From Stieleria maiorica (GTDB taxonomy: Bacteria > Planctomycetota > Planctomycetia > Pirellulales > Pirellulaceae): a DNA stretch of 64,000 nt. Where the stretch lies: the NCBI RefSeq assembly GCF_008035925.1, contig NZ_CP036264.1:2205409-2269408 (forward strand), written 5' to 3'. A model generated the notes under the pieces. That model had not been told where the DNA came from and searched no databases. It saw only the letters and a program-made list of their open reading frames with translations. Both the position numbers and the translations under genes were made by a program. Within the stretch, counting starts at the first letter, position 1. The number at the start of each line of letters is the position of its first letter. This document shows positions 5,116 through 12,458 of this stretch, piece after piece.

Positions 5116-6183
5116 TTACGGGCGATCGCGGAACGGCCACTCGGGGCTGCCCTTGGGGTCTTCGCGATGCGGTGATTTGCCGAGCTCGAAATCCGACGGT
5201 TGCAGGTTCAGACCTTTCCAATAGGCGGCATCGTTGATGAAGCCGTAAAAGGTCGGGTAGTACGGATCGACGTAGGCGACATCGGCTTTCTCGGGCACCT
5301 CTTTGTCCAGCAGATAGTAGGTCGCATTGACCAGCATCCGGCGCAGATCCTCGCTGACCAAATCGACGCTCGCCCCGGTGGTCGTGCAAAACGCTTGTCC
5401 CTTGGTGCCCGCGGGCGAGACATAGGGGTGCAGCCAGGCCAGGGGCTGCATCGGATCATTCTTGGCGCCTTCGATGTTGGCCGAATTCGGATCCAGCGAT
5501 TCGGTCACCGCCCCACGCAACAGGATCGTGTCCCGGTCGGTCAGGTGGGTGACGCCATAGACGTCCGACGGGACGAAGATTTCGCCGACCGAATTGAGAA
5601 TCGGATGGTCTTTGGCCTGGTCGACGATGACGGCACGGGCGCCTTGGCGTTTGTGTTGGCCGTGGTGGCTGACCCATTGTTCGCCCAGGATTTTCAGGCC
5701 GAAATTGCTGTACGTCAGCTCGCCGCCGAACGACTGTTTGCCGTTGAAGGCGTGTGTCGCGGTGCGAATCCCGATCAACGGTTTGCCGTCGTCGATGAAC
5801 TTGGTGATGTGTGCCGCTTGTGATTCGCTGGGTGAACGGAATCGCGTGCCGATGATCATCAGATCCGCGTCGTCCAGTGCTTCCCAGCCGACGACACCGC
5901 GTTGATTGTTGGGATCGATGTAGCTGCCGTCGGCGGACATCGAAAACAACACCGTGCAACCAAAGCCGTGTTTGACGCTCAGAATCTTGGCGAGCATCGG
6001 CATCGATTCTTCGGTGCGATACTCTTCATCACCCGAAACCAACACGATTTTGCCGGCCGAGTCCCCTTGGGCGGGAAAGTGCAGCACACCCGACTGGGCG
6101 GCGGCGCTGTTGCCATGCAGCGAGACACTGATCAAGGGAACAAACAGCAGGCAGAAGGCGGAGACAAGCGTGCGGGAGATCAT
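5116..6183 (-). CDS. ThuA-like exported protein
   Basis: This 355-residue protein begins with a signal peptide (about residues 1-29, ending NSAAAQ) and continues as a ThuA-like, class I glutamine-amidotransferase-like fold. Recognisable stretches are KIVLVSGDEEYRTEESMP, ADLMIIGTRFR, IGIRTATHAF and the later SHHGQH. The family is named after trehalose utilisation and is common in planctomycetes beside sugar-degradation genes; its biochemical activity is mostly unknown. The start at 6183 is supported by the signal peptide. The gene follows the protease operon on the same strand after about 80 bp, but the gap makes co-transcription uncertain. Confidence 0.8.
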   Translation of the reverse strand: MISRTLVSAFCLLFVPLISVSLHGNSAAAQSGVLHFPAQGDSAGKIVLVSGDEEYRTEESMPMLAKILSVKHGFGCTVLFSMSADGSYIDPNNQRGVVGWEALDDADLMIIGTRFRSPSESQAAHITKFIDDGKPLIGIRTATHAFNGKQSFGGELTYSNFGLKILGEQWVSHHGQHKRQGARAVIVDQAKDHPILNSVGEIFVPSDVYGVTHLTDRDTILLRGAVTESLDPNSANIEGAKNDPMQPLAWLHPYVSPAGTKGQAFCTTTGASVDLVSEDLRRMLVNATYYLLDKEVPEKADVAYVDPYYPTFYGFINDAAYWKGLNLQPSDFELGKSPHREDPKGSPEWPFRDRP

Positions 6184-6265
6184 GTTGGAATATGGGGTTG
6201 AAGGGGGATCAGACGAGAGTCGAGTGCGCGATCATCGATCGCAGCCGGATCGCACAAAGTTTAAC

Positions 6266-8329
6266 TCAAATCGTTTGCAACAACCGGACCCAGCGCAGCA
6301 GGTCGTCGGCCTGGGTGTCGCCGCCCAAGGAGATCGGGTAGCCGGCGGTCGCCAGCGGCGCCAGCCAGGTCGGCCCGTCGTCCAGCGAGTCGATCGGGAG
6401 CATGATTTCCAGGGCGCGGTCGGGTTCGTTTTCTCGCAGCCGCACCGCGGGCGGTTTCGCATCGGCCGCAACGGCGATGCCGGCAAAGTTCTTGCGGTCC
6501 GACAGTGCGATCGCGATCACCATGGAATCGGCCGCCGACGCGGCAGTGTCTTTCAGGGCGCCGTTGGCTGCGACGGCACTGGCGCTGATCGGCACGCGTT
6601 GGGCCATCAAGGTCGTCATCCGGGAGATGACGTCAATCTCCTTCTGCTGCCAACGTTGTTCGTCTTCGCTGCAAATCGCGCAGACCACCACGCCGGCTCG
6701 GCCGGCCGCATCACGCCACGGCTGCAACGCTTCGGCGGGATCACGCTGCTCCGGAGCGAGCAACAACACCAGCATGGCCAATCCTTGCTCGGCCAACTGC
6801 TCGGCGGCCACCTGATCCGGTTTGGGCGCTACATAGGCGGCCAGGTTGGGGACATCGGGCAGCCGCAGTTGCTGGACGTCCCAGGGGTTTTCCGGTGCGT
6901 CGCCGGACCACTGCTCGATCGTTTTTTTGAGTGTCGGACCGGCGATCGGCGTGGGGGTCAGTTTAATTTCCACCGGCTCTCCGTCACGCTCAACGGCCAG
7001 CGTCAGTTCTTCGTCCGCGACCGCGGTGATCAACATGCGACCGATCGTGGCCACATCGTTGATTTCGGTCTGGTCAACTTTTTTGATCACATCGCCCGGT
7101 TCCAACTTGCCGTCGGCTGCGGTGTCGGGAACGACCGCGCGGACGACCACTTCGCTTTGGACTTCGGCCTCGTTGTCTGCTTCATTGCTGGCCTCGACTG
7201 CGTTCTCGCTCAGCCAGACCCCCAGTCGCTGGGGATTCAACGGCGGAATCGACTCGGCCAGCGTGACGGTGACCGTTCGCGTTTCACCGTCTCGTCGCAA
7301 CGTGATCTCGATCGACTCGTCGGCATCGTAGGGACCGAGTGCTTGTTTGATCTGTTGAAACATCCGCACGGGATTTCCGTTGATGGCAACGACGGAATCT
7401 CCCGGTTCGATGCCGGCCCTTTCGGCCGGAGATCGACTGCGAACCGCCGCCAACTCGGTGTCTTCGGCGTACGGGTCCTTGGCCTTGGGGACGATGCCGA
7501 TCAGCCCTTTGCGGATGTCTTGCCCGCTGCGCAATCGTTCCAGTTTGTTGGTCAGCACGGGGGTCGGGACGGCAAACGCGATCCCCGAGTCATACCAGCT
7601 GGTGTCGTCGGGCGCCCCGCCTTCGGCGACCGCCGGGACCAGCACACCGATCGCGTTACCGTACAGATCAACCAGGGGGCCGCCATAAAACGACGGCGAC
7701 ACGCGGGCATCGCTTTGCAGCATCGTGCCTTCCAATCGACCGGTGGCGCTCAAGATGCCGCTGCTGACCATCGGCGACCGATCACCGCCGTAGCGACCGA
7801 CGGCGACGACCGTCGATCCGACCGGCGTGTCGACCGCATCGGGGAATTCCAGCGGAATCAGTGGTGTGTTCGATTCGACGCGCAGCATCACCAGGCCGCG
7901 GTGATGGTCACGCGCGACGATCGTGGCCGCCAGCCGCGTCTGGTCGGGCAACACGACCAGGATGCTGGCCGACGGTCGCCGCACGATGATGTCCGATGCG
8001 ACGATCCATCCGTCGGCATCGACGACCACGCCACAGGACGGCGCGTCTTGCGCGACTTCGCTTTGCCGGTTGCCGCCGCCGGCGACTTCGGCCACACCGA
8101 TCACTTCGATCGACACGACCGACGGCAAGACCCGCTCGGCCGCGTTCCGCACCGCGCTCGCCATGGCTTGACGGTACTCCGCAGTGTCCTTTCGAGCAGT
8201 GTCGTTCTTCGCCGTGTCATTCTGCGCCGTGTCATTCTGCGCCGTGTCATTCTGCGCCGCGGCGCGGACGCTCGGCAGCAGACATGCCGCCGCCAACAGC
8301 AGGCAGCGGATCGAGTTCAAATTCAGCAC
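6266..8329 (-). CDS. HtrA-like pseudoprotease with two PDZ domains
   Basis: This 687-residue exported protein starts at GTG 8329, 12 bp after the previous stop. The signal peptide (about 1-25) is followed by five NDTA-type repeats (26-50). A trypsin-like domain (about 55-290) aligns with the HtrA encoded upstream, but all three catalytic positions are lost: His is Ile114 (VASDIIV), Asp is Gly145 (DHHRGLVMLR) and Ser is Tyr215 (SPSFYGGPLV). Two PDZ domains follow (about 295-385 and 390-480) with motifs SPAERAGIEPGDSVVAINGN and KLEPGDVIKKVDQTEI. The last 200 residues form a domain I do not recognise. It is the final gene of the operon and probably acts as a binding or regulatory subunit rather than an enzyme. 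Confidence 0.8.
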   Translation of the reverse strand: MLNLNSIRCLLLAAACLLPSVRAAAQNDTAQNDTAQNDTAKNDTARKDTAEYRQAMASAVRNAAERVLPSVVSIEVIGVAEVAGGGNRQSEVAQDAPSCGVVVDADGWIVASDIIVRRPSASILVVLPDQTRLAATIVARDHHRGLVMLRVESNTPLIPLEFPDAVDTPVGSTVVAVGRYGGDRSPMVSSGILSATGRLEGTMLQSDARVSPSFYGGPLVDLYGNAIGVLVPAVAEGGAPDDTSWYDSGIAFAVPTPVLTNKLERLRSGQDIRKGLIGIVPKAKDPYAEDTELAAVRSRSPAERAGIEPGDSVVAINGNPVRMFQQIKQALGPYDADESIEITLRRDGETRTVTVTLAESIPPLNPQRLGVWLSENAVEASNEADNEAEVQSEVVVRAVVPDTAADGKLEPGDVIKKVDQTEINDVATIGRMLITAVADEELTLAVERDGEPVEIKLTPTPIAGPTLKKTIEQWSGDAPENPWDVQQLRLPDVPNLAAYVAPKPDQVAAEQLAEQGLAMLVLLLAPEQRDPAEALQPWRDAAGRAGVVVCAICSEDEQRWQQKEIDVISRMTTLMAQRVPISASAVAANGALKDTAASAADSMVIAIALSDRKNFAGIAVAADAKPPAVRLRENEPDRALEIMLPIDSLDDGPTWLAPLATAGYPISLGGDTQADDLLRWVRLLQTI
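8190..8262. repeat. 15-bp in-frame tandem repeat
   Basis: About four to five copies of a 15-bp unit (ATTCTGCGCCGTGTC) lie inside the pseudoprotease gene and encode successive (Q/K/R)(N/K)DTA pentapeptides just after the signal peptide. The unit keeps the reading frame, so copy-number change would only lengthen or shorten a linker. Confidence 0.85.
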
Positions 8330-8341
8330 GCGACGGGGCTC

Positions 8342-9364
8342 CTAGGGTTGCAAACGAACGGGCAGCACATCGTTGCCGCGCTGGATCGTGATGGAAACCG
8401 CATCGCGGCGATCGATCCGACGCAGTAAATCGATCAGGGTTTGTTGGTCCCCGACACGCTGTCCATCGAGCAGCAAGATCAAGTCGTCGGCCCGCAATTT
8501 CGCTTCCGCCGCCGGCGAGTCGGACTGCACGGCATCAATGTAGGCCGGTGTCGATTCCAAGACGTTGGGCACCAGCACCAACCCCAACGTTGCCAGATTG
8601 TGCGACTGGTCGCGACGCAGCACGGGATTGTTTTCCTTGGGCACGGTCGTCGCACGACCGGCGATGATGTCGCCCAACGCCGTGCGCAGGGAATCGATCG
8701 GCAAGGCATAATTCAGCCAGACACCGGTGCCGCTGTCACGGAGCTCTTTGCCCAACATCCCGATCAGACGCCCATCGGCGTCGACGACCGCACCGCCGGC
8801 CGCCCCCGGATTGTTGGCGATCAAGTCCAGGATCAAGACCTTGCCACGGTAGGGCGTTTGAAACGTGCCGCGACGTGCGTCCAAATTGGTCACCCCGGCG
8901 ATGATCCCCTGCATCACGCTGGCCGGTTCGTTGCCCGCGGCGATGCCGAACAGGTTGCTGACCGCCAAGATCGGGTCACCCCATTGGGCGTTCAATTCTT
9001 TGTCGACTTTGAAGTACGGCAGATCGGACGCATCGACCTTCAACACCGCCAGTTCCAGCGAGGGTTCGATCCCGACGATCTTGGATTCGAAACGGCGACC
9101 GTCATCGAGTACGACGATCGGTTCGACATCCAACACATAACTCCATGCCGTTGCGATGTGACCTTCGGGCGAAACCAGAAAGCCGCTTTGATAGGCTTCC
9201 AGTCCCTTGATGCCGCCGGCGCCGTAGATTTTGACGACGCGTTGCTGGACATCACGTGCGTCGGGAGCGACCGGCGGTTGGGCCGAAGCGATCGGGAGAA
9301 CCGACAGGCAGACGAGCGACAGCAACGCCGCCGACGCGAAGGCGTAATTCGGTCGAAGCATCAT
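8342..9364 (-). CDS. HtrA-like pseudoprotease with one PDZ domain
   Basis: This 340-residue exported protein starts at ATG 9364, which overlaps the TGA of the preceding gene in an ATGA arrangement. The signal peptide covers about 1-28 (ending IASAQP). The trypsin-like domain keeps the fold landmarks SGFLVSPEGHIAT, but the catalytic His is replaced by Ser75 (ATAWSYVL), the Asp by Glu104 (PSLELAVLKV) and the Ser by Ala189 (NPGAAGGAV). One PDZ domain follows (about 250-340; LRADDLILLLDGQRVGDQQT). Loss of all three residues means it cannot use the usual serine-protease mechanism. Its place between an intact protease and a second inactive copy suggests a subunit or substrate adaptor. Confidence 0.82.
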   Translation of the reverse strand: MMLRPNYAFASAALLSLVCLSVLPIASAQPPVAPDARDVQQRVVKIYGAGGIKGLEAYQSGFLVSPEGHIATAWSYVLDVEPIVVLDDGRRFESKIVGIEPSLELAVLKVDASDLPYFKVDKELNAQWGDPILAVSNLFGIAAGNEPASVMQGIIAGVTNLDARRGTFQTPYRGKVLILDLIANNPGAAGGAVVDADGRLIGMLGKELRDSGTGVWLNYALPIDSLRTALGDIIAGRATTVPKENNPVLRRDQSHNLATLGLVLVPNVLESTPAYIDAVQSDSPAAEAKLRADDLILLLDGQRVGDQQTLIDLLRRIDRRDAVSITIQRGNDVLPVRLQP

Positions 9365-11262
9365 TGCGGTGCACTCTCGGTTTGGGTCCAGTCGCTGATC
9401 GAAACGTCCAGCGACACGTCCGTTCCGTACCGCAGTTCGAGCCCGCTGATGTCGTCTCCCTCGCGCCGGATCCACACCTCCGCCGGGTCCGAATCTCGAT
9501 CGGCGACCACTTCGATGCACTCGACCAGACCGGTCTCGGGGTGCGACAACCAGCGGACTTCCATTTCTCCGTACAGGCCGACCAGGCAATCGCGGAGCGG
9601 TCGCTGACCGCCCAGCGGCATCGTGCCTTGGTAATAGGCCTCGCCGAACTTCTCCGGGCCAAGTTTTAACATCGTGCGCCAAGCGTCGAGCGCGGGCAGG
9701 ATCCCGGCGATCGAATCGGTGTCGACCGCGTCAAACAGTTCCGACCGCCTGGTCGCCTGCATCGCGGTTTCGCCGACCAGGATCGCGTACTGATCGTCGG
9801 CCACCGAAAGCTTCACCTCGGCGTCGCCCGTCTTGCCGGTAATCGTCCAGGCCGTGGTTTTGGATTGATCCGTTTCGGCGAATTGGTTCGCAGGGAATTG
9901 GCTCCTCAATGACCGAATGAACCGATCTTGTTCGACTTGGTTGAAGTGATAGTTGGCAAACCCTCGACGCTGGACGATCAGATCGGCGACCGCTTCGGGG
10001 ATCGCCGGTTTGGCAGCGCCGTGTCCCGGCGGCAGCCGTTGGCGTTTCAAATCGGGGCGTTTTGGTTTTTCATCCCCACCTTGTTCAGCGTCTTGATCGT
10101 CGTCTTGTTTTTCGCCTTCTCCTTCACCGTTGTCTTCGTCATCGGGTTGGTCGGGGACCGGCGGCGGGGGCGGCAGGGCCGACGCCATCTTGGCCAGCAA
10201 TTCGTCTTGACGATGCACACTCATCAATCGCACCGGGACGCGGGTCGTGACTCCCTGGTTGCGAAACGCGACATTCACCCGCCAGCCACTGGGGAAGGTG
10301 CCCAAGACGTTTTGAACATCGTTGGCGGTCATCACCGGGCGGCCGTCGATTTCCAGGATTTGGGCGTTGTAACGCAGGCCGCGTCGGTAGGCGTCACTGG
10401 ACTCCAGAATATTGCTGACCACGACGCCGCCGTCGGGATCAGTGGTCACCGTCGCTCCCAGCGTGGCGTGATCGACGATCCGCCCGCTGCGAAGATAACC
10501 CAGAAAGTTCTTGGCCTGGTTGATCGAAATCGCGTACCCCACACCGACGTTGACTCGGCCGCGTTTTTCGAACGAGCAACGGCCGACGATCCCCAGCAAT
10601 TCACCTTGATCGTTGTAGATCGGTCCGCCGGAATTGCCGGGATTGATCGACGCGTCGGTTTGCAGGCAGTCGGCGTATTCCAACAGCGTCCCGGAAGGGT
10701 ATTGGTAACGTCCGACGCCGCTGAGGATTCCCCAGGTGACGGTGGGCTGCAAATTGGTGGCCAACAGGAACGGGTTGCCGATCACCATGCACCAGTCACC
10801 GGCACGGGCTTGGCGGCTATCGGCCAGCGTGGCGTAGGGGAAATCATCGCGGCCGAGCAATTGAATCATGGCCAGGTCGCCGACCGGATCCAGTCCCACC
10901 AAGACGGCGTCATAGACGCGACCGTCACTCAACCCGCACCGCATGAACGTTCCGGCCGGGCTGGTGACGTGAAAATTGGTCAGCGCATAGCCTTCCGGAG
11001 AGATCAGGACACCGCTGCCTCCTCCTCCGCCGCCGGGCACAAACACGCTGACAGCGCTCGGGCGGGCACGATCGACCGCTGCGATCCGTGCCCGTTCAGC
11101 CGCTTGCAACAGCGGGTCCAATTCGATGGGACCATCGACCGACGCGGCAAGTTGCACCCCGTCTTGGCCGCGTGCCCCGTTTCCCAAGCCAAATGCGGCG
11201 AGACAGACCGCGGTGAGCATCGCGATTGAACGCGGCAGTTTAAATTTCACTCGGCGGTTCAC
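9361..11262 (-). CDS. HtrA/DegP-type serine protease with intact triad
   Basis: This 633-residue exported protein starts at GTG 11262, overlapping the TGA of the previous gene by four bases. After the signal peptide (about 1-32) the trypsin-like domain carries His98 (LTNFHV), Asp129 (DPVGDLAMIQL) and Ser211 (INPGNSGGPIYN), the complete DegP-type triad. One PDZ domain spans about 275-355 (RRGLRYNAQILEIDGRPVMT). An acidic low-complexity linker rich in P, D and E (about 365-405) leads to a C-terminal domain of about 220 residues that I cannot name. It is probably a periplasmic or surface quality-control protease and the only catalytically competent member of the operon. Confidence 0.88.
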   Translation of the reverse strand: MNRRVKFKLPRSIAMLTAVCLAAFGLGNGARGQDGVQLAASVDGPIELDPLLQAAERARIAAVDRARPSAVSVFVPGGGGGGSGVLISPEGYALTNFHVTSPAGTFMRCGLSDGRVYDAVLVGLDPVGDLAMIQLLGRDDFPYATLADSRQARAGDWCMVIGNPFLLATNLQPTVTWGILSGVGRYQYPSGTLLEYADCLQTDASINPGNSGGPIYNDQGELLGIVGRCSFEKRGRVNVGVGYAISINQAKNFLGYLRSGRIVDHATLGATVTTDPDGGVVVSNILESSDAYRRGLRYNAQILEIDGRPVMTANDVQNVLGTFPSGWRVNVAFRNQGVTTRVPVRLMSVHRQDELLAKMASALPPPPPVPDQPDDEDNGEGEGEKQDDDQDAEQGGDEKPKRPDLKRQRLPPGHGAAKPAIPEAVADLIVQRRGFANYHFNQVEQDRFIRSLRSQFPANQFAETDQSKTTAWTITGKTGDAEVKLSVADDQYAILVGETAMQATRRSELFDAVDTDSIAGILPALDAWRTMLKLGPEKFGEAYYQGTMPLGGQRPLRDCLVGLYGEMEVRWLSHPETGLVECIEVVADRDSDPAEVWIRREGDDISGLELRYGTDVSLDVSISDWTQTESAPQ

Positions 11263-12458
11263 TTCATCAACCTGGGTTTAAAGAATCGGATCAGATCTCC
11301 GACGTCACCGTCATCGCCGGCCAAGGCTTCTAACCGCACGCGCCGAGCGCCGGCGACCGGGATGCGAAACCCTTTGCTTTCAGATTCGGCCAACGCCTGC
11401 TCCCACTGCACGACATCATCGACGACCAAGCGGATGATCACCGTACCGCCGGCGGTGACAAGTTTATCCCGTCCGACGCTGCCGGCCAGCGTTTGGAATC
11501 CCGGTTCGACGCGGTACTCCGCCGCGCCGCCGGCAACCATCACCAAGTCCTCGCCCTGGGCCGCCGGTCCGAACCAATCGCTGGTCAAATCGGCCGGCAA
11601 ATTCGTCGCCAGGTAGGGGGACATTCGGGTCGATGCGGCAGACGCTTGGGCCAACAGGATCCGTCCGCTGGCCCAGGTGATTCGTTTGATGCGTTCCAGA
11701 GGGATTGGGTGGCGGACTTGCCCCGGTAACACGATCTCCACCGCATCGGTCGCCTCACTGGGTTCCAGTCGCGACGCCAGAAAGATCGATCCATCGATGG
11801 TGGTGATCTTCACCGCGGACGAGGCTGCGGGGTCAGTGGCGGTTCGAAAGAAGACGCCTTCAAGTCGATCGCGTGGTGCTTCGATCGGGTCACCGTCCAA
11901 TTCGAACCGCAGCTGTTCAGCATCCAGGCCGACCACAACGCCTTCGATCGGATCCAGTTGGTCATTGCCGCGGCGGATGACCATTCGATCGCTGCGTGAT
12001 GGCTTGTCGACCAGCCCCAGCCACTGGGGGTCGGTTGCCGGTCCGCCGGGCCGAAATCGAATGGATTGCACCTGACCGATCGGCAGACGGAGTTCCGCCT
12101 GACGTTGCGGCTGCAGCGTGACCGCCGAATCATCCGCGGTGACATCTCGAGCGAAAATCGATGTCCCATCGATCAGGGTGACATTCGTCGCCGGCCCGGC
12201 CGAAGATTCGCGAGCGTCCGCCACTTGCAGCGACACGATCTGGTCAACGGCAAGCATGCGGTGAGAGGATTCACCATCGACCTGTAACTGCACCGAGGTC
12301 CCCGCCACACCGGCGTAGCGGCCACGGACCGTTTCACCCGAGGTCAACTCGATCTGTACCACCGCCGCCCGGCAAGTCGCGGAAAACGGTACGGCAAACG
12401 AGACACAGCCGAGGACGGCGACGAACGGAATCGCGGAAAACCACGGGGGACGTTTCAT
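11259..12458 (-). CDS. Exported NPCBM-like domain protein, first gene of the protease operon
   Basis: The 399-residue protein starts at ATG 12458, giving a signal peptide (about 1-32). Its N-terminal half has repeated beta-rich segments around LTSGETVRGRYAGV, LIDGTSIF and TTIDGSIFLASR that look like related copies. The C-terminal 130 residues (SDWFGPAAQGEDLVMVAG, later GGTVIIRLVVDD and GARRVRLEAL) resemble the NPCBM/NEW2 carbohydrate-binding fold found fused to glycosidases. Its stop overlaps the start of the HtrA gene, so the four genes are probably one transcript and translationally coupled. The NPCBM call is by pattern only, and a carbohydrate ligand is inference. Confidence 0.65.
   Translation of the reverse strand: MKRPPWFSAIPFVAVLGCVSFAVPFSATCRAAVVQIELTSGETVRGRYAGVAGTSVQLQVDGESSHRMLAVDQIVSLQVADARESSAGPATNVTLIDGTSIFARDVTADDSAVTLQPQRQAELRLPIGQVQSIRFRPGGPATDPQWLGLVDKPSRSDRMVIRRGNDQLDPIEGVVVGLDAEQLRFELDGDPIEAPRDRLEGVFFRTATDPAASSAVKITTIDGSIFLASRLEPSEATDAVEIVLPGQVRHPIPLERIKRITWASGRILLAQASAASTRMSPYLATNLPADLTSDWFGPAAQGEDLVMVAGGAAEYRVEPGFQTLAGSVGRDKLVTAGGTVIIRLVVDDVVQWEQALAESESKGFRIPVAGARRVRLEALAGDDGDVGDLIRFFKPRLMK

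Follow-up and report, generated by a model that had tools for sequence, protein, structure and literature searches.

An operon of one active and two triad-less HtrA paralogues

We analysed a 64,000-nucleotide stretch of the Stieleria maiorica genome (assembly GCF_008035925.1, contig NZ_CP036264.1, positions 2,205,409 to 2,269,408; hereafter the window), in which four minus-strand genes, genes 1 to 4, encode an NPCBM-domain protein, an HtrA-type serine protease with an intact catalytic triad and two HtrA paralogues that have lost theirs (Table 1). The host genome is a single contig of 9.9 Mb. An earlier reading of these letters, made without database searches (the sequence-only reading), had proposed that two inactive copies are kept in strict coupling with an active one as parts of a hetero-oligomeric protease or chaperone, in which the inactive subunits bind substrate or gate activity. 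We found that the one working and two dead HtrA copies are, on the evidence of their sequences, an old and jointly inherited gene set of planctomycetes, and that their products probably cooperate in the cell envelope, next to a membrane system driven by ATP.

Table 1. Genes, junctions, triad sites and domains of the operon, in window positions
Feature	Position	Residues	Strand	Description
Gene 1	12458-11259	399 aa	minus	N-terminal hydrophobic segment; NPCBM domain
Gene 1 NPCBM domain	~11268-11543	306-397	minus	
Gene 1/gene 2 junction	11259-11262		minus	GTGA overlap
Gene 2	11262-9361	633 aa	minus	GTG start; active HtrA with Trypsin_2, one PDZ and an extra C-terminal domain
Gene 2 His98 codon	10969..10971	98	minus	Triad residue
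Gene 2 Asp129 codon	10876..10878	129	minus	Triad residue
Gene 2 Ser211 codon	10630..10632	211	minus	Triad residue; GNSGG
Gene 2 C-terminal domain		~420-630	minus	No assigned function
Gene 2/gene 3 junction	9361-9364		minus	ATGA overlap
Gene 3	9364-8342	340 aa	minus	Predicted pseudoprotease; N-terminal hydrophobic segment; Trypsin_2 and one PDZ; Ser75/Glu104/Ala189
Gene 3 Ala189 codon	8798..8800	189	minus	Replaces catalytic Ser; GAAGG
Gene 3/gene 4 gap	8330-8341		minus	12 nt
Gene 4	8329-6266	687 aa	minus	GTG start; predicted pseudoprotease with Trypsin_2, two PDZ and a C-terminal pseudo alpha/beta-hydrolase; Ile114/Gly145/Tyr215
Gene 4 Tyr215 codon	7685..7687	215	minus	Replaces catalytic Ser
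Gene 4 C-terminal alpha/beta-hydrolase-like domain	6269..6880	~484-687	minus	Relatives lack the elbow serine

The gene layout agrees exactly with that reading, which had described four minus-strand genes joined by GTGA and ATGA overlaps and a 12-bp gap, and our alignments returned the same residues at the triad sites of all three HtrA paralogues, including the intact His98, Asp129 and Ser211 of gene 2. Pfam Trypsin_2 matched genes 2, 3 and 4 (E 1.8e-29, 1.6e-21 and 9e-20), and every PDZ domain in Table 1 scored above its Pfam cut-off (for gene 2, PF00595 with 25.9 bits against 23.2). Gene 2 fell below the NCBIfam cut-off for a 'Do family serine endopeptidase' (192 bits against 416.2). For gene 3, the trypsin fold and PDZ domain are assigned from the sequence profile only; for gene 4, the fold is additionally predicted, with an AlphaFold model (60 rows) of mean predicted local distance difference test (pLDDT) score 89.2 that retrieved DegP24 in Foldseek at E 2.8e-30. 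The gene 2 model (61 rows) reached a mean pLDDT of 81.3, and in both models the predicted protease and PDZ parts matched DegP, DegQ and DegS structures. Thus the fold landmarks and PDZ domains that the earlier reading had attributed to both dead copies are borne out, as is its NPCBM-like lead gene, for which PF08305 scored 32.8 bits against a cut-off of 23.9.

Export was judged from hydropathy rules on N-termini. Under a crude 19-residue rule, genes 1 and 3 of the window pass and genes 2 and 4 fail, yet the latter two start with a shorter hydrophobic stretch. Under a softer 12-residue rule applied to the first 130 residues in named relatives, genes 1 to 4 pass in 64/68, 63/65, 75/75 and 65/66 cases, respectively. 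Gene 3 of the window shares 94% identity with its counterpart in Rhodopirellula sp. JC639 and 88-93% with those in SM50, TBK1r and Stieleria sedimenti.

Triad loss is fixed in genes 3 and 4

Two sets of loci were compared. Set A holds 100 regions of the family and 20 from elsewhere in the phylum, picked for holding a match, so its counts are conditional; they use 118 loci, with two non-orthologous regions of the window's own genome left out. Set B holds 80 loci of named relatives, some of the same species as in set A. The His/Asp/Ser triad of gene 2 was present in all 108 set-A rows and in 73 of 75 set-B rows, the other two being without aligned residues at the His site or at the His and Asp sites. 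A full triad occurred in none of the 112 gene 3 rows of set A (109 separate genes and three fusion halves) and in none of the 80 of set B; two gene 3 rows that show HDS next to a second triplet come from 2+3 fusions, in which the gene 3 model aligns to the active half as well. At the triad sites, gene 3 of the main operon most often reads Ser/Glu/Ala, and that of a second, paralogous operon (see below) Gly/Gln/Ala; overall, the His site usually has Ser or Gly and the Ser site usually Ala. Serine is found at the gene 3 nucleophile site in two set-A rows, both without His; of two extra gene 3 halves, one carries His but Gly/Gln (L288) and the other reads Gly/Gln/Ser (L303). In gene 4, the nucleophile site is Tyr in 113 of 114 set-A rows (Phe in one) and in 75 of 76 set-B rows (Val in one). 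None of the rows examined therefore has the triad in a third or fourth gene, as the sequence-only reading had expected, and the trypsin fold that it had proposed for both is given by Pfam for gene 3 and predicted for gene 4. Judged by these alignments, genes 3 and 4 are HtrA-fold pseudoproteases without a catalytic triad.

The alignments also revealed conserved WSYV and WLNYA-type motifs in gene 3, which presumably replace the HtrA ones, and WYDSGIGFA in gene 4. The gene 3 motifs, and a near-invariant Tyr in gene 4 where plain loss would drift, would suit protease folds repurposed for other biochemistry, such as metal, lipid, glycan or ligand binding, as MamO's protease domain was for metal (as reported in the available text of PMC4794232). 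We consider this improbable: MamO family scores are far under the cut-off, the best values for the trio being 106.6 bits for MamE and 47.7 bits for MamO against NCBIfam cut-offs of 800.

Gene order and spread in Planctomycetota

The sequence-only reading had anticipated the same four-gene order in related genomes, and 1-2-3-4 on one strand was indeed found in 96 of 118 set-A loci and 67 of 80 set-B loci. The remaining 22 set-A loci comprise six with gene 4 alone (moved away in five, at a contig end in one), six with 2-3-4 in which gene 1 was not recognised, two with 1-2-3, two with 3-4, one with 2-3, one with gene 3 and four fusions or order artefacts; the other 13 of set B are partial, mostly on short or cut contigs. 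The genes are also tightly packed, the earliest possible start of gene 3 lying no more than 30 nt from the gene 2 stop in 171 of 180 loci, and that of gene 4 no more than 30 nt from the gene 3 stop in 136 of 181. Chance can be set aside, as other members of the family and further orders and families of the phylum repeat both the gene order and the active/dead/dead pattern.

Within a family sample of 149 genomes, gene 3 matched at E<=1e-40 in 133, gene 4 at E<=1e-30 in 139 and both in 132; the counts of 133 and 132 were made by eye, and matches may include the second operon version. In a phylum sample of 246 genomes, 40 had gene 3 at E<=1e-55, all of them among the 41 with gene 4 at E<=1e-78, a co-occurrence compared by eye with a gene 4 cut set after the table had been seen. 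In the extra genome (G338), the contig with gene 4 is 5.4 kb long. Genes 3 and 4 are adjacent in 38 of the 40 genomes with gene 3, and gene 3 was found in nine of nine further families of the same order that were tried. Next in rank for gene 4 comes G154 (1.8e-77), a genome from another family of the phylum in which no gene 3 match reached E<=1e-35. It carries a diverged HtrA trio in tight tandem (L331:3114-6202), with HDS and then RGF and NNT at the triad sites, which indicates that the active/dead/dead pattern extends beyond the thresholds used.

A second, paralogous operon with the same active/dead/dead arrangement is present at L136, L137, L139-L144, L146, L147 and L149-L152. Its gene 3 has Gly/Gln and mostly Ala at the triad sites, its gene 4 is shorter and without the hydrolase domain, and a VWA gene lies about 10 kb from it in G003, G012, G027, G058 and G100 (by eye). 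The window's genome has no such operon, its sole gene 3-type match at E<=1e-35 being the window's own. A gene 3 that is 51% identical to the window's was seen on a contig labelled Candidatus Nealsonbacteria (L237), probably a mis-binned planctomycete contig.

Other HtrA-type arrangements were observed as well. A tandem pair in the window's genome (L154:5525-7932, ~7.4245-7.4269 Mb) and in G134 (L322:15890-18243) consists of a trypsin-like gene with an intact triad followed by a close gene with Ser/Asp/Cys at the triad sites. In the window's genome, L155:5665-8076 (~9.5017-9.5041 Mb) encodes a protein of 803 aa whose trypsin-like domains, at least two in number, include one that has the triad and one that lacks it; an active HtrA-like gene lies tail to tail with this one.

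Genes 3 and 4 are under purifying selection and form old lineages

Ratios of nonsynonymous to synonymous substitution (dN/dS) were obtained by the Nei-Gojobori method against the four nearest relatives (L186-L189, dS 0.34-1.14). For genes 3, 2, 4 and 1 they were 0.07-0.10, 0.11-0.13, 0.12-0.14 and 0.19-0.22, respectively; three more saturated pairs gave 0.05-0.11, 0.07-0.13, 0.12-0.23 and 0.11-0.29, in the same order of genes. Genes 3 and 4 are under purifying selection. The loss of the triad as such is what would be expected of decaying duplicates carried along in the operon. We rejected that explanation as extremely improbable, since, across the four nearest pairs, gene 3 has a lower dN/dS than the active gene 2 does, the replacements are fixed across families, and the genes are retained when unlinked.

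Eighty-five protease domains were placed in a tree with ten other HtrA-like domains of the same genome (a quick method, no bootstrap), in which genes 2, 3 and 4 each formed one clade across several Planctomycetota families, with Shimodaira-Hasegawa-like approximate likelihood-ratio values of 100, 99 and 100. The paralogous operon together with families f20 and f58 formed the same six-row sub-clade in all three of these clades. Such matching clades indicate that the three lines were already distinct when the sampled families arose, and that they have mostly been inherited jointly from then on.

Separated and fused genes

In G253 and G235, genes 2, 3 and 4 are at three separate places and all persist; in G028, G083, G059 and G098, gene 4 lies apart and genes 2-4 are all kept. 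In genus g29 (four genomes sampled), gene 4 is located elsewhere. That all six genomes checked for it have kept genes 2-4 in spite of their separation speaks for function rather than hitch-hiking. The earlier reading would have been weakened by third and fourth genes occurring unlinked and unpaired. As to linkage, gene 4 is unlinked in three genera; as to pairing, its partners were still present in the genomes checked, and g51 and G134 are exceptions without gene 2 nearby.

Natural fusions were also found. Genes 2 and 3 form one open frame in L150 and L303 (same genus) and in L285, L288 and L290 (three other families), and genes 3 and 4 are fused in L301 (= L152), L302 and L304, all of one genus (g51). 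All of these keep the active/dead or dead/dead pattern and are the best indirect sign that the neighbours work side by side. The seemingly fused open frames L279, L280, L286 and L287, and long antisense open frames, were not counted as fusions, being merely open alternative frames. Together, the conserved order, congruent clades, purifying selection, retention of separated genes and fusions give good support to the earlier claim of two inactive copies being maintained in a functional link to the active one.

Alternatively, each dead copy might work on its own in the periplasm, as a PDZ chaperone or adaptor for capturing or delivering clients; co-expression would then be its only tie to the protease, with no stable mixed oligomer. 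Both keep their PDZ domains, gene 4 carries extra domains of its own and stands apart in some genera, and the g51 3+4 fusion is without gene 2 nearby. The 2+3 fusions in four families, the 3+4 fusions and the persistence of genes 2-4 at separate places speak for a closer coupling, and we regard this alternative as the less probable one.

Additional domains in genes 1, 2 and 4

The C-terminus of gene 4 is homologous to esterases: a profile of 28 relatives matched the PDB sequences of LC-Est1C (E 1.4e-11) and a PHB-depolymerase family esterase (E 2.8e-10), and Pfam hydrolase families match it too. At the nucleophile elbow (GxSxG) of this domain, Ser is absent from all 28 relatives in the alignment (Q in 16, E in eight, G in three and H in one), which excludes the window protein; within the window's own gene 4 subclade, the elbow is not recognisable. 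Gene 4 thus appears from these alignments to be a double pseudo-enzyme. Two side observations concern the same gene. Fifteen-nucleotide tandem repeats encoding QNDTA follow its hydrophobic start (window ~8180-8254, minus strand) and are absent from 20 aligned relatives; they are possibly a variable linker. An 824 aa open frame runs antisense to it (window 5954-8428, plus strand), probably a by-product of high G+C.

The predicted C-terminal part of gene 2 has 11 strands and three longer helices. The model is loosely reminiscent of LolA, a resemblance for which direct tests gave weak matches or none. DUF4292, a LolA-like family, matched weakly, with 12 of 23 members passing E<=0.1 and 4.4e-4 as the best value; LolA itself (PF03548) gave no match in 25 genomes (the window's own and 24 relatives), and comparison with PDB sequences gave no convincing match. 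In the whole-model fold searches, HtrA chains fill the match lists, so that the C-terminal domains of genes 2 and 4 were barely probed.

Gene 1 may have a glycan- or wall-sensor role, as its NPCBM domain suggests. Its N-terminal half (residues 31-270, window ~11649-12368) shows weak internal repeats of small units; of six segment pairs compared, only B-D was clearly alike, with one in 500 shuffles scoring as high.

A MoxR-DUF58-BatA-VWA neighbourhood in relatives

Two further genes precede gene 1 in 56 of 91 main-operon loci. Both have an N-terminal hydrophobic segment in the examples checked, and one looks like a coiled coil by composition. Their orthologues in the window's genome lie at 4.671-4.674 Mb, not beside the window operon. 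In four relatives, the order MoxR-DUF58-BatA-VWA-CC1-CC2-g0 is followed by genes 1-4 (L311, L312, L313 and L318, joined by coordinates as L311-L078, L312-L266, L313-L088 and L318-L121). The same seven-gene block is found in the window's genome at G000:C1:4661236-4673985 (L310:1237-13986), 2.4 Mb from genes 1-4, outside the window and out of view of the sequence-only reading. Elsewhere, MoxR and DUF58 stand between genes 1 and 2 (L315), only the later part of the block is present with MoxR outside the fetched stretch (L314 and L320), or no part of it occurs in the fetched stretch (L316, L317, L319 and L321).

Pfam and NCBIfam searches of the own-genome block identified MoxR (AAA_3, 3e-64), DUF58 (1.4e-49), the BatA N-terminus (3.6e-12) and VWA (1e-5), and the corresponding genes of L311, L312, L313 and L318 were assigned by similarity to L310. 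CC1, CC2 and g0 matched no clear family in these databases. No BatB, BatC, BatD or BatE name appeared in Pfam among the seven proteins of the own-genome cluster, and no further search was made for them. By a crude hydropathy measure, BatA, VWA and CC1 have several membrane segments, CC2 and g0 have one N-terminal segment, and MoxR and DUF58 have none. In at least 21 of the 40 gene 3-bearing genomes of the phylum sample, the VWA protein and gene 3 are no more than 17 kb apart (by eye).

Interpretation

The reading that we favour, with a probability of roughly 0.6, is a periplasmic HtrA assembly with two pseudoprotease partners that serves as the proteolytic arm of a Bat-like machine. Genes 2-4 would be a three-paralogue HtrA module, composed of the catalytic gene 2 and the purpose-built pseudoprotease subunits of genes 3 and 4, and exported to the periplasm along with the NPCBM protein of gene 1. 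The three proteins would form a mixed trimer, a higher oligomer or stacked trimers. Within it, the dead subunits could bind clients or signals through their PDZ domains and remodelled clefts and could switch the gene 2 protease on or off. On the periplasmic side, the assembly would then do the proteolytic work of a Bat-like membrane machine powered by MoxR, in envelope stress or envelope protein maturation. The parts of this reading differ in strength. Gene anatomy makes the functional unity of genes 2-4 very likely and their physical association somewhat more probable than its absence, and leaves about an even chance that the trio is the effector arm of the MoxR/VWA system. The sequence-only reading is accordingly upheld in part: functional coupling stands, and the hetero-oligomer, with its substrate-binding or gating subunits, is still what one would infer from the genes.

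Several observations weigh against the favoured reading. The three g51 genomes with a 3+4 fusion (L152 = L301, L302 and L304) have no gene 2 in the fetched flanks, nor do the wider g51 flanks (G051 and G096; L325-L330), with the rest of the g51 genomes unsearched. The main locus of G134 (L133) has genes 3-4, and no gene 2 was found in L322 or L323; the same genome holds a complete second operon in L324. These facts about g51 and G134 point in the opposite direction to the G154 trio. In the family sample, gene 4 occurs without gene 3 at E<=1e-40 in G005, G034, G035, G039, G051, G089 and G093, of which G051 has a gene 3 match just short of the cut (3.6e-39) and G034, G035 and G089 have a contig start no more than 1 kb from gene 4; G050 shows the reverse mismatch, gene 3 without gene 4. 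In the other 206 of 246 phylum genomes, gene 3 fails to reach E<=1e-55, and one genome of the same order (G314) is without genes 2 and 3 at the thresholds used. As regards the membrane system, the MoxR/VWA block and genes 1-4 are unlinked in the window's own genome, and the VWA family (E<=1e-40) is present in 220 of 246 phylum genomes, mostly without the trio, which makes the HtrA trio an addition to one branch of the VWA family. Co-regulation alone can explain operon neighbours and fusions. Finally, no physical interaction between MamE and MamO, an active/inactive HtrA pair of magnetotactic bacteria, was detected according to the accessible portion of PMC4794232.

A bolder version of the favoured reading is an ATP-coupled periplasmic protease, in which a cytosolic MoxR AAA+ ATPase would act through BatA/VWA membrane proteins and exported coiled-coil proteins on a hetero-oligomeric HtrA with a single catalytic subunit and two dead ones; envelope proteolysis would thereby be switched by signals or work that ATP drives across the membrane. 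Deg/HtrA proteases are otherwise presented as independent of ATP (abstract of PMC3473262), and we regard this version as speculative and unlikely. The locus appears as an old three-part system that combines two differently fixed dead partners, one of them with a second, apparently dead enzyme domain. The role of pseudoproteases for HtrA becomes directly testable in culturable planctomycetes, and the link to the MoxR/BatA/VWA cluster gives a proteolytic hypothesis for Bat function.

Comparison with known systems

DegP, DegQ and DegS (S1C) share their predicted fold and PDZ domains with genes 2 and 4, and the intact triad with gene 2. DegP, DegQ and DegS are known as homo-oligomers. The planctomycete trio differs in that two of its three paralogues are dead, and none of its members reached the cut-offs of the DegP and DegS models. 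Plant Deg7 and yeast Nma111 combine active and degenerate HtrA domains in one polypeptide encoded by a single gene. They resemble the planctomycete 2+3 fusions, whereas separate paralogues are found in the great majority of the fetched loci.

Bat and other MoxR-VWA loci have the MoxR AAA+ protein, DUF58, a BatA-type two-anchor protein and a VWA protein in common with the cluster of the relatives (PMC3557215, PMC5700661). The sections of these two papers at hand describe BatB, BatD, TPR and SH3 parts, mention no HtrA, and call the function of Bat proteins elusive or unclear. The relatives' cluster, unlike the Bat loci, has two coiled-coil-like genes, a further exported gene, the NPCBM gene and the HtrA trio. 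A survey of PDZ proteins recorded many in planctomycetes, and the words 'inactive' and 'NPCBM' are absent from its main text (PMC6411480). In the titles and abstract openings of the open-licence PMC literature, we found no description of the HtrA trio or of its MoxR link.

The closest precedent is MamE/MamO, in which an active HtrA is paired with an inactive HtrA-type protein, as here. According to the consulted part of PMC4794232, MamO is needed, without catalysis of its own, for MamE-dependent proteolysis, and HtrA-type pseudoproteases arose independently in three taxa, a pairing that its authors interpreted as selection for such active/inactive pairs. The same text gives one inactive partner in the studied strain, whereas the planctomycete operon has two. 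It also describes MamO as having Thr as the predicted nucleophile, a TauE domain and a metal-binding di-histidine, whereas the planctomycete triads were lost differently. The putative pseudo-hydrolase end of gene 4 and the MoxR/BatA/VWA linkage in relatives are features of the planctomycete trio, unlike MamE/MamO. The pairing of active and inactive HtrA proteins is thus known, and what is new is its form as a trio with two dead lineages, the apparently dead hydrolase domain of gene 4 and the MoxR-DUF58-BatA-VWA setting in relatives.

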